NCBI RefSeq assembly: GCF_020515625.1
Contig: NZ_JAIWPJ010000007.1
Location: 1-64,000 of the forward strand
Length of the DNA stretch: 64,000 nt
Direction: 5' to 3'
From: Natrinema amylolyticum
GTDB taxonomy: Archaea > Halobacteriota > Halobacteria > Halobacteriales > Natrialbaceae
Position 1 is the stretch's first letter; each line of letters opens with the position of its first letter. Of the stretch, positions 7,296 through 10,530 are shown one piece after another. A program made the translations under genes and the position numbers. Below the pieces are notes generated by a model. It worked only from the letters and a program-made list of their open reading frames with translations, did no database searches and was not told the DNA's origin.

Positions 7296-7490
7296 TTACA
7301 CCTTATTTGGTTGTCTGAAGCGTTTTATTCCGGCGAACTCGAGGATGCCCGTTTTATCGAGTTCGTCGATTCTGCGTTCAGCGTGTCCAGTACAGTAGTA
7401 GGACGATGTCACTGCACCAGACTCTAAATTACCGATCTCAACACGGTGGGTTGCCTCATCATCACAACTGGGCCACCATTCACAGGTCAT
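7296..7490 (-). CDS. small Cys/His protein of virus-like cassette
   Basis: 64 residues starting MTCEWWPSC. Cysteines at residues 3 and 9 plus YYCTGHAERR downstream could bind zinc. It is the last gene of a minus-strand cassette that starts at the tRNA-like gene (9503); the gap to the preceding gene is about 60 bp. No known domain is recognised. An alternative ATG at 7505 adds five residues. Confidence 0.6.
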   Translation of the reverse strand: MTCEWWPSCDDEATHRVEIGNLESGAVTSSYYCTGHAERRIDELDKTGILEFAGIKRFRQPNKV

Positions 7491-7548
7491 GCTATACGCT
7501 ACCACACGAGTTGAGATAAGCGTTCACCGTCATCCCAATTCACCAGTA

Positions 7549-7653: not shown

Positions 7654-7852
7654 CCTCCCACTTCACCTCACCAAAGAATCGGTGTGCGATTTCGTGTTTC
7701 AGTCCACGTAACTCCGCTTGCCGATGATGAGCGCCATTGAACTGCGATGTATTAGAATCGTACTTCTCCTTGACTGCCTTCGCAGCGTCTATGTGCTCAT
7801 CGATCAACGCCACAACCTGCGCTAGCGTGTTCTCATCGTAGTCGCTGCTCAT
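7640..7852 (-). CDS. hypothetical protein of virus-like cassette
   Basis: 70 residues, ATG at 7852 overlapping the end of the upstream gene by 20 bp. The sequence is a long helix (LAQVVALIDEHIDAAKAVKEKYDSN) followed by HRQAELRGLKHEIAHRFFGEVKWEDVDL. The HEIAH sequence resembles a zinc-metalloprotease HExxH signature, but the protein is far too short for that fold, so I do not call a protease. It sits in the cassette between the 133-residue and 34-residue genes. Confidence 0.65.
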   Translation of the reverse strand: MSSDYDENTLAQVVALIDEHIDAAKAVKEKYDSNTSQFNGAHHRQAELRGLKHEIAHRFFGEVKWEDVDL

Positions 7853-8234
7853 CGCTCTCCGCCTCGTACTCCTCGACCGGCATCCACCGATACGTGTACC
7901 CGCCGTCCGCTGCCGGATAACAAATCTCGTCACCGGGCGAGAGTTCACCGTACCGGAGCCACACAGACAGGATGGCCTCCATCTCCCGATGCAGCTGGCG
8001 GCACCACTCATCGTCCGCGCTCTCCATCTCCGTGATCTCACGGATGCTGTCGGTGACGGAGCTGTCACCGTACGGCCGCTTGGGATTGATCTCCGGTGCA
8101 CCGAACTCGCCAGGGTGCCACCTGACCCGCATCTGGCGGAGCAGTTTGATGTGTTCCGGTTTGATGGTTAACGGGTTGCTCGGCTCGTAGATGTCCGATG
8201 GATCGTACTCGTCGTCATCGTTGTCGTTGAAAAT
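7833..8234 (-). CDS. virus-type conserved protein, probable ATT start
   Basis: 133 residues if translation starts at ATT 8234, or 99 from the first ATG (8132). The upstream 34 codons read smoothly (DDDEYDPSDIYEPSNPL, then KPEHIKLLRQMRVRWHPGE) and continue the acidic bias. From memory, haloarchaeal virus-derived proteins share the block around PEHIxLLxxMRVxW...INPKRPYGD. The upstream stop TGA overlaps this ATT (TGATT), where TGATG would be the normal coupling. The middle part is a helical DxxREIxEM segment and the C-terminus is a short beta region. Function unknown. Confidence 0.65.
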   Translation of the reverse strand: MFNDNDDDEYDPSDIYEPSNPLTIKPEHIKLLRQMRVRWHPGEFGAPEINPKRPYGDSSVTDSIREITEMESADDEWCRQLHREMEAILSVWLRYGELSPGDEICYPAADGGYTYRWMPVEEYEAESDEQRLR

Positions 8235-8527
8235 CAGCTATCACCGGTCTCAAGACCAAATGCGGCGTTTGACACGATCCGGTGATCGTCGGACGTTGCA
8301 CACTTGTGGAAGCTCATCGAATCGTTGAACAACTTGATGATACTGTCACCGTCCGGATCTCCGTGGAGAATCATACAGGACCAGTCATCAGGGCTGACCC
8401 AGCCATCTGATTGCAACTTCTCTTGCCTCTCTGCTGCCCCCACCGCAGCACCGATGACGAACACGATTACCGCGAGGACCACGACAGCAGTCGCCTGTTT
8501 TTCGGTGATCTCGAACGATACCTTCAC
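8234..8527 (-). CDS. membrane-anchored hypothetical protein
   Basis: 97 residues with one N-terminal transmembrane helix (residues 12-32, TAVVVLAVIVFVIGAAVGAA) and a soluble domain with two cysteines (DWSCMILHGD, HKCATSDDHR) that could form a disulfide outside the cell. The start is GTG at 8527, overlapping the upstream stop as GTGA. It belongs with the next gene upstream, which has the same architecture: a helix followed by a Cys-containing extracellular part with Met/Ile-rich strands. Confidence 0.65.
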   Translation of the reverse strand: MKVSFEITEKQATAVVVLAVIVFVIGAAVGAAERQEKLQSDGWVSPDDWSCMILHGDPDGDSIIKLFNDSMSFHKCATSDDHRIVSNAAFGLETGDS

Positions 8528-8925
8528 CGCGTATCACCCTGTACGTAGTCCGCGAAGTCCTTGAACATGGGAAACGCCTTCCGGACGCGCTGCCCGTCCT
8601 GATCATCGTAACAGGTAATCATATACTGATCTCCTGTGGTCGTAGTCGGGTATCCAGCCCGGTACCCGTGCTTCTCACAGAACGCATCCACCGTATCCTC
8701 GTCCAGTGAGGCCGTGATCACCTGTTCGGTGACCGTTCCATCCGGAATCTGCATGGCTGTGGTCGTACTGTCCACCGGAGTATCGTCTACAGTCGGATCG
8801 CTGGTTCCGAAGATAGCGACAAGGAAGATCATGCACGCGGCACCGAGGATGAACGCCATATACGCATAGACGAATACTTCACGGCGGCTGTACCCATACT
8901 CCTTCCACGGTTCGTTCTCGGTAAT
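8524..8925 (-). CDS. membrane-anchored hypothetical protein, probable ATT start
   Basis: 133 residues from ATT 8925; the first ATG is at 8859. The 22 upstream codons read TENEPWKEYGYSRREVFVYAY, a good cytosolic segment leading straight into the helix MAFILGAACMIFLVAIFG, so a start at 8859 would cut the protein just before its membrane anchor. The ATT overlaps the preceding TAA (TAATT), mirroring the TGATT junction one gene further on. The outer domain has Thr/Asp-rich linkers and cysteines in DAFCEKHGYRAGYPTT and MITCYDDQ. Confidence 0.6.
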   Translation of the reverse strand: MTENEPWKEYGYSRREVFVYAYMAFILGAACMIFLVAIFGTSDPTVDDTPVDSTTTAMQIPDGTVTEQVITASLDEDTVDAFCEKHGYRAGYPTTTTGDQYMITCYDDQDGQRVRKAFPMFKDFADYVQGDTR

Positions 8926-9323
8926 TAGCTATCACCCTCTTTTACCGGCGACCCGGCACTTGGTTCCAGCTGCCAGTCCGCAAACTGCTGTTTGATGAGT
9001 AGCATGAGCTGTCGGTATCGCACCGCTTGGTCGCCGCGGATTTCTGCCCCGCAGTCTTCGCATTCCCGGTGTTCTGACGGTACTGCCCGGTGGAACGTCA
9101 TCTCGTCCAGGTTGTGGAGCTTGCCGTCCTCACATCGTGGCAGGAGTTCTTCCATCCTGTCAGCGATGATGTCCATGGCCGCACCGACACCGTGAATGAA
9201 CGCATCATGGGCTGGGTTCGTGACGTCTGCGCCGTTCACCCACTCGATGAGTTCGGGGATATTTTCTGCTCCACTGTCACCTGCCGCTGTCTTCACCTTA
9301 TCTAATGATTTGATTGTCCTCAC
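8925..9323 (-). CDS. hypothetical protein with zinc knuckle, first gene of cassette
   Basis: 132 residues, GTG start at 9323 only 18 bp after the tRNA-like gene. A helical N-terminal region (ELIEWVNGADVTNPAHDAFIHGVGAAMDIIADRMEELLPRC) is followed by CEDCGAEIRGDQAVRYRQL, so a Cys4-type knuckle may be formed with the cysteines of LLPRCEDG and HRECEDC. No known family is recognised. It leads the minus-strand cassette and is probably co-transcribed with the tRNA-like gene. Confidence 0.6.
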   Translation of the reverse strand: MRTIKSLDKVKTAAGDSGAENIPELIEWVNGADVTNPAHDAFIHGVGAAMDIIADRMEELLPRCEDGKLHNLDEMTFHRAVPSEHRECEDCGAEIRGDQAVRYRQLMLLIKQQFADWQLEPSAGSPVKEGDS

Positions 9324-9328
9324 CCCTG

Positions 9329-9341
9329 TCTGTTGAACAGA
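9329..9341. repeat. perfect 6-bp palindrome at tRNA-like gene 3' end
   Basis: TCTGTT-G-AACAGA lies directly against the 3' end of the tRNA-like gene and just before the first gene of the cassette. It could be an RNA-processing hairpin or a recombination core; neither is shown. Confidence 0.4.
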
Positions 9342-9503
9342 TGGAGCAGCCGGGATTTGAACCCGGGAACCAAGGCAGGCTCCATAGCGTTCGGAGGGAC
9401 GACCTCCCTGAGCGCTTCAGCCGTCACCCGATAGAGGTTGGCGGTCGACTCTCACGTCGGCCTATCACCTGCCATATGCTCTGCCAAGCTGAGCTACTGC
9501 TCC
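9342..9503 (-). tRNA. tRNA-like gene with intron or insertion, anticodon uncertain
   Basis: The minus strand starts GGAGCAG and ends CTGCTCC plus A, a perfect 7-bp acceptor stem. TA at positions 8-9, the D-stem GCTC/GAGC with GG in the loop, and a T-arm CCGGG-TTCAAAT-CCCGG are all canonical. The anticodon region is much too long. GGCAGG is complementary to CCTGCC, with about 85 extra nt between them, and ATAG/CTAT can form an inner helix resembling a bulge-helix-bulge splice site. If spliced conventionally, TGATA would read as a GAT (Ile) anticodon, but the linker lengths do not fit a standard tRNA. It may be an intron-containing, viral or degenerate tRNA. Confidence 0.6.
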
Positions 9504-9547: not shown

Positions 9548-9721
9548 CTACCCAATACCGGGCGGCCTCGGCACGTAGGTTGATCCGATAGGCTTTCCGC
9601 TGTCGGCAAGTTTCTCTAAACCCTGTTGTGCAGTATGCCGCGGACAGTCAAGCATATCGGCGACTTCGTCGGCAGTGATCGGTGTCGCTGGCCGCTCGAA
9701 CGGCGTGAAAACACCCCGCAC
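9548..9721 (-). CDS. small winged-helix protein
   Basis: 57 residues from GTG 9721 to TAG 9548. The sequence GVFTPFERPATPITADEVADMLDCPRHTAQ followed by LEKLADSGKPIGSTYV is the usual haloarchaeal winged-helix core (TADEVAxxLDCxRxTAxxxLEKL). The usual basic wing end is absent, so the 3' end may be altered. A TATA-like TATATA at about 9767-9772 on the minus strand is near the right distance for a leaderless or short-leader transcript. The frame stays open further upstream without a start codon, so it could also be a truncated longer gene. Confidence 0.5.
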   Translation of the reverse strand: MRGVFTPFERPATPITADEVADMLDCPRHTAQQGLEKLADSGKPIGSTYVPRPPGIG

Positions 9722-10003
9722 CTCCTCCCGAGTAACATCCGGAGCTGAACCGGGGAATCCCCTGAACTTGTATATAGACCCGGGACCGGAAACGGTTGGC
9801 GTTCGGAAAAAGATGATTGCGGAGAAGACGTGTCCGCTGGTGAGATCAGACTCATTGGTACTGGCTATACATGCCCATGTGGCGGGACAGCTTTTCAGAC
9901 GCTTGAATGACCAGCAGAGGATCAGCTAGTTCTGTTAGAGCTAGTATCAATAAATTCACTCCAGATACGGCGCAATAGGATTAAGACGGTACACCAGGGA
10001 GAT
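9722..10003. other. non-coding stretch
   Basis: Nothing convincing is visible apart from the minus-strand TATA element near 9767 and the upstream extension of the winged-helix frame. Confidence 0.4.
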
Positions 10004-10147
10004 ATGACTATGAGTGAGACGGAGGACCCACCGTCTCCGAAGGGGATCCCGCTCCTCGGTAACGGCCTGTCCTTTTCCCAAGACCCAGTCGGCGCAATGG
10101 AATCCTGGGCGGATCACGGTGACCTCGTTCAGTCCTCTGAGGGATGA
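10004..10147 (+). pseudogene. cytochrome P450 N-terminal remnant
   Basis: 47 codons. The product has the proline-rich P450 entrance (PPSPKGIPLLGNGLSFSQDP) followed by VGAMESWADHGDLVQ, which in full-length P450s leads into the B-helix region. The frame stops at TGA directly after GDLVQSSEG, and no heme-binding or I-helix segment follows. It is therefore a 5' fragment left by a deletion. No function is expected. Confidence 0.7.
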
Positions 10148-10189
10148 ATACGGCATTTAAGTGTCGGAACCATGATAGAACAACGTGTC

Positions 10190-10530
10190 ATGAGTTCTCC
10201 GCCATCGGAGAGTCCGAACGTGGAACGATCCACGACGTCTAGTATCCCACTCCCGGAGTCGTTGACTGGCTCTTAGGAGCCCTCATTGCGCTCGGTGGAT
10301 TGATCTTTGTAGCAGTCGGGGCCGCCCTTATGTTTGGTATTGATCGAGAGTTGCTCGAACAGGCTATCGAAGAAGAAACCACAACGGTCACAGTCGGCAC
10401 GACTGAACTTACTGACGCCGAGACGCTTGAGGTAGCTGACGAGCTTCGTATGAAAGCCATATCGGTTTCTGCCTATTTGTCTAACCAATCCGTATGCGAA
10501 CCTGTGAGACCGAATCGGAACCGACAGTGA
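10190..10530 (+). pseudogene. decayed membrane-protein gene
   Basis: An ATG at 10190 opens a Ser/Pro/Glu-rich start that ends at a TAG. A second frame then continues VVDWLLGALIALGGLIFVAVGAALMFGIDRELLEQAIEE and TTELTDAETLEVADELRM before losing coding character. The first helix and the DRELLxxAIxEE segment resemble a haloarchaeal two-helix membrane protein family, whose second helix is missing here. So there is a frameshift plus a 3' truncation. Confidence 0.6.

Follow-up and report, generated by a model that had tools for sequence, protein, structure and literature searches.

Locus and gene neighbourhood

The stretch of DNA analysed here (the window) covers the opening 64 kb of contig C7, which is 140,133 bp long and belongs to a 4.71-Mb haloarchaeal genome. 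It carries a tRNA-like gene on the minus strand in a mosaic, mobile neighbourhood, between a truncated sensor gene and a cassette of small open reading frames (ORFs) (Table 1).

Table 1. Features of the tRNA-like gene and its surroundings, in window coordinates
Feature	Coordinates	Strand	Basis and remarks
tRNA-like gene	9342..9503	-	5' end at 9503, discriminator A73 at 9342, CCA not encoded; Rfam RF00005 and structural scan
5' body: acceptor strand GGAGCAG, TA, D arm GCTC-AGCTTGGCA-GAGC	9478..9503	-	sequence
111-nt D-to-T interval	9367..9477	-	about 23 nt expected; helix GGCAGGT/GCCTGCC and hairpins
3' body: T arm CCGGG-TTCAAAT-CCCGG, acceptor strand CTGCTCC, A73	9342..9366	-	sequence, Rfam
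13-bp palindrome TCTGTTGAACAGA	9329..9341	.	abuts the 3' end of the tRNA-like gene
132-aa ORF	8925..9323	-	begins 18 nt past the tRNA-like gene; an apparently conjugative Natrinema element (G009) holds a weak relative (38% over 55 aa)
111-aa ORF	8524..8859	-	homologue encoded, along with a tyrosine integrase and a HerA/FtsK-like ATPase, by a chromosomal element of Natrinema (G010)
97-aa ORF	8234..8527	-	4-nt overlap with the preceding stop; no family
Two small overlapping ORFs	7833-8132; 7640 to ~7852	-	no family
Possible sixth minus-strand gene	7296-7505	-	ORF reading
Truncated N-terminal fragment of a PAS S-box sensor gene, ~57 aa	9593..9760	-	homology

The earlier note on this DNA had counted seven minus-strand genes in the cassette, which is too many: five are convincing, with a possible sixth. 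It had also called the cassette virus-like. No convincing match to a viral protein family was obtained for the five genes (PHROG returned one weak match, to an unknown), no viral contigs with relatives were found for two cassette genes, and no hallmark virus genes, by which a virus-encoded tRNA would be recognised, were found among these neighbours. The mobile-element part of the description holds, with two homologues in integrative or conjugative elements, and from these relationships we would call the cassette mobile-element rather than viral. The G009 element is probably conjugative, with ORFs that by our own reading include what we take to be VirB2-like and VirB6-like proteins; the VirB6-like ORF had no PHROG match.

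Upstream, five relatives show the homology of the PAS S-box gene to Natrinema-group replicons ending precisely at 9597, 94 bp from the tRNA-like gene. The segment 9597-10441 is a patchwork of fragments from different Natrinema replicons (pieces of several lie within 9838-10441), including the PAS-sensor gene cut at 9597. The palindrome abutting the 3' end of the tRNA-like gene is present as described earlier; palindromes of this form occur 20 times in the window against 15.6 expected, which is approximately chance frequency.

An intact tRNA body around an unreadable anticodon region

The gene matched the Rfam tRNA family (RF00005) with 38.3 bits against a gathering cut-off of 29 (E-value: 1.6e-4 for the 64-kb window; 1.2e-6 for the local stretch), and its acceptor, D and T arms and conserved positions place it among tRNAs above that cut-off. 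A purpose-written structural scanner, which recovers 42 of the 46 host tRNA loci, returned this gene as its single match in the window and nothing from approximately 770 kb of shuffled sequence; it reports only genes with near-intact bodies, so that a pattern of intact bodies is partly selected by the method. All stems are perfect (acceptor, 7/7; D, 4/4; T, 5/5), and the 16 base pairs across them are all Watson-Crick. Both the tRNA-like identity and the perfect arms read earlier from the letters were thus borne out by Rfam and the structural scan. An identical 22-nt D-arm stretch is found in haloarchaeal tRNA-Thr(TGT). ARAGORN run without introns gave no match for the gene, and inspection of the 50 nt upstream revealed no obvious TATA-like element.

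The D-to-T interval exceeds that of a class I tRNA by approximately 88 nt. In the unspliced Rfam alignment the anticodon stem TATGG/CCTTG contains a T-T mismatch and position 33 would be A; the earlier description of a non-standard anticodon region with linkers unlike those of a canonical tRNA was accordingly correct. The insert folds no more stably than its shuffled counterparts (z = -0.75), although the GGCAGGT/GCCTGCC helix closes it (p ~ 0.04 for a flank helix that good).

Tests for an intron

Every possible single segment was removed from the 111 nt, with a 5-bp anticodon stem, U33 and a class I variable region required of the product. This excision test gave zero class I solutions at any position, so that a mature 5-bp stem with a 7-nt loop carrying U33 is obtained neither from the unspliced gene nor by any single class I excision. 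The same procedure recovered the expected arm from a related element's tRNA-Tyr(GTA), which holds a 107-nt intron, and a perfect anticodon arm from the intron-bearing tRNA-Ala(TGC) of the haloarchaeal virus HGTV-1.

Euryarchaeal endonucleases are described as strict for one bulge-helix-bulge (BHB) intron at positions 37/38 (PMC4090602). The earlier note had proposed an explicit BHB search and had suggested that ATAG/CTAT resembles such a motif. In an unrestricted strict scan the best score was 22 against a shuffled mean of 25, and a scan restricted to the anticodon region gave p = 0.59, compared with p = 0.01 for the tRNA-Tyr control; there is therefore no BHB above chance in the query, while the control has one. 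The ATAG and CTAT segments do exist, outside any strict BHB, and because the scan stays at or below the shuffled level they are not a BHB core. Archaeal intron-containing tRNAs carry a BHB at their exon-intron junctions, and this gene has none. The canonical archaeal BHB intron reading of the gene fails, and as written the gene is unable to decode by any rule tested in this analysis. Canonical 37/38 BHB precursors, such as haloarchaeal tRNA-Trp, are likewise normal tRNAs apart from an anticodon-region insertion of approximately 90-100 nt; they differ from the query in possessing a BHB and a readable anticodon after excision.

Several specific readings were also rejected. When introns were allowed, ARAGORN assigned an isotype that was inconsistent across settings, either Ser(CGA) or Ile(GAT). 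Forcing a canonical 37/38 intron produced the Ile(GAT) reading, with a broken D stem and positions 32-35 unpaired with the intron end, and the Ser(CGA) reading has C33. A Thr(GGT) reading has A33 in place of U33, and it has A73 where archaeal tRNA-Thr carries the discriminator U73. With a single intron and a class II variable region, one poor solution with a variable region of 25 nt was obtained, and 13% of shuffles did as well or better.

Possible two-intron or other unconventional splicing

The gene could instead be a functional mobile-element tRNA whose precursor is spliced unconventionally, through non-canonical sites, two introns or an element-encoded ligase, an explanation that we consider possible but unlikely. 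No class I two-intron reading with perfect stems was found. When two excisions were allowed, one class II solution emerged, a tRNA-Leu(CAG) with A26, an anticodon stem TAGCG/CGCTA, a loop CTCAGG(G/A), a long variable arm and A73. Its arm AGCG-CTCAGGG-CGCT matches the AGCG-TTCAGGG-CGCT arm of the host tRNA-Leu(CAG), and its discriminator is that expected of archaeal tRNA-Leu. This is the best such reading and the leading form of the splicing explanation; we do not present it as a finding. Some two-intron Leu or Ser solution arises in 17-23% of shuffled inserts, the variable arm has p ~ 0.06, the D arm is unlike the Leu type TAGCCAAG, and neither proposed intron fits a BHB on inspection, in keeping with the scan.

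Comparable systems lend this explanation some weight: HGTV-1 (NC_021328) has tRNA genes annotated with introns (tRNA-Ala(TGC) and tRNA-Asp) together with RtcB and RNA ligases, and one Natrinema element has an intron-bearing tRNA-Tyr beside odd tRNA-like genes. HGTV-1 resembles the present case as a haloarchaeal mobile genome with an anticodon-region insertion and with tRNA arrays among small genes. It differs in that its tRNA-Ala splices on paper to a perfect anticodon arm, where the query fails, and the two share no sequence similarity past the general tRNA pattern. If such genes are spliced, haloarchaea or their mobile elements would remove introns without the canonical motif that the endonuclease is thought to need.

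Within HGTV-1, the gene annotated as tRNA-Asp(gtc) with an intron (70440-70571; L168:22440-22571) has a D arm that looks like class II, and on paper it yields neither a convincing arm nor a convincing Asp reading; the annotation may be wrong.

Search for relatives and the host tRNA set

Neither the 100 relatives nor the 392 genomes of the order (approximately 490 haloarchaeal genomes in all) yielded a relative when searched by BLAST with the complete gene; matches were confined to generic tRNA arms and a single 35-nt stretch. That stretch, in G303 (E-value 9e-5, calculated for one genome among the 392), was the one candidate for derivation of the insert from a known gene and was judged to be chance. 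Exact patterns of the two gene halves are absent from viral contigs and from 85,000 species genomes. The earlier note, which had offered an intron-bearing viral tRNA as one possibility, had stated that the absence of similar genes from any virus would refute its proposal; searches of viral contigs by exact pattern found none, and searches for viral relatives by exact 5' half, exact 3' half and architecture returned nothing except ordinary bacteriophage tRNAs.

The host genome has 45 recognised tRNAs, a nearly full set that includes Ile(GAT), Thr(GGT), Ser(CGA) and Leu(CAG). Trp, Gln(CTG), Pro(CGG) and Arg(CCG) are not on this list, which comes from a search whose first pass overlooks intron-bearing genes, the present tRNA-like gene included; their absence from it is accordingly no evidence that the genome lacks these four.

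The earlier note had also offered a tRNA fragment acting as attachment site; such a site would be the remnant or the target of site-specific integration. Integrases are encoded on the same contig, and tRNA genes are common integration targets of haloarchaeal proviruses (PMC8651126). Such a site would be recognised by a duplicated tRNA 3' end at the far boundary or by identity to the 3' half of a host tRNA, and neither was found: the window contains the 3' end with its flank just once, and in the rest of the genome host tRNAs share with it no more than a generic T-arm stretch of approximately 19 nt. By contrast, a real duplication in this genome is exemplified by a tRNA-Gly 3' fragment lying approximately 13 kb from its gene. 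We consider an attachment site very improbable.

That fragment (L086, G000:C2:474700-475200) derives from tRNA-Gly(TCC), has an integrase gene near the intact tRNA gene, and looks like an ordinary integrated element.

Look-alikes in a sister element

A tRNA array in the G009 element (G009:C1:558171-558886; L091:172-887) comprises the tRNA-Tyr(GTA) used as a control, a tRNA-Leu(CAA) and two tRNA-like genes of 98 and 209 nt. In both of the latter the acceptor, D and T stems are perfect, the D and T arms lie 47 and 157 nt apart, and no reading with a single intron emerged; one of the two lies only 8 nt from the ordinary tRNA-Leu(CAA). The relative of the first cassette ORF is encoded approximately 8.5 kb from this array. 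Because this element carries two more such genes, the pattern of intact arms and an unreadable anticodon region recurs and the query is not unique, although the G009 genes have other sequences and insert lengths and are accompanied by a readable Leu(CAA) and an intron-bearing Tyr(GTA). Among 40 regions around 16 related conjugative-element loci, we observed ordinary tRNAs and one questionable odd anticodon loop (L144).

Possible relic or selected RNA

Our best explanation, held tentatively, is that a tRNA gene of a mobile element has suffered disruption of its anticodon arm and most likely no longer decodes. The mobile element would reside on a plasmid or secondary contig of the genus Natrinema; the gene's acceptor, D and T arms would have stayed intact while the anticodon arm was disrupted by the extra nucleotides, which would not be a standard archaeal BHB intron, and most likely no decoding tRNA is made any more. 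We favour such a relic because the tRNA match is real and the intron tests failed where their controls passed, and further because the insert folds like shuffled sequence, no relatives were found, the host tRNA set is nearly full and the neighbouring gene is truncated at 9597. We infer that unconventional splicing does not rescue the gene and that it is a relic instead of an RNA selected for its body alone. The degenerate gene that the earlier note listed among its options is in this respect the favoured one, although simple decay leaves the perfect tRNA body unexplained: 16 Watson-Crick pairs are not preserved for long under neutral decay, removal of a clean insertion should restore a readable anticodon arm and no removal does so, and two further intact-body, unreadable-arm genes occur in one Natrinema conjugative element. 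If the gene is only a relic, it warns that a tRNA called automatically on a haloarchaeal plasmid, in this case by a 38-bit Rfam match, can be non-functional.

The perfect body and the two look-alikes in the sister element leave real room for unconventional splicing or for a selected anticodon-less RNA. The latter would be a non-decoding tRNA-like RNA that needs only its acceptor, D and T arms, serving, for instance, to decoy enzymes that process or aminoacylate tRNAs, or to signal the processing by which the mRNA downstream is released. It would fit the shared architecture of the three Natrinema mobile-element genes and the short distance from the tRNA-like 3' end to the first cassette gene. 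We nevertheless judge it quite improbable: no orthologues were found, the three genes differ in sequence and insert length, the upstream 50 nt offer no obvious TATA-like element, and the recurrence was seen with a scanner limited to near-intact bodies and is in part a product of the method.

A broader proposal, which we regard as distinctly unlikely, is that haloarchaeal mobile elements recurrently carry tRNA-like genes in which the body is intact but the anticodon region altered; these would be either spliced without a canonical BHB intron (here as the two-intron tRNA-Leu(CAG)) or kept as anticodon-less RNAs, for example as decoys or in evading anticodon-cutting defences. If these genes are not spliced, mobile elements would be keeping tRNA bodies that are unable to decode, and another function would be needed for them.

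Two further tRNA-like genes were encountered during the comparisons. The L144 gene (L144:12778-12860; G306:C4) has an anticodon loop of 10-12 nt, lies beside a normal tRNA-Tyr in a related element and may hold a 3-nt insertion. A tRNA at L019:752-880 (G063) has an Arg(TCG)-like loop, CTTCGAA, and a palindromic insertion at a non-canonical place, after the D stem and before the anticodon stem.
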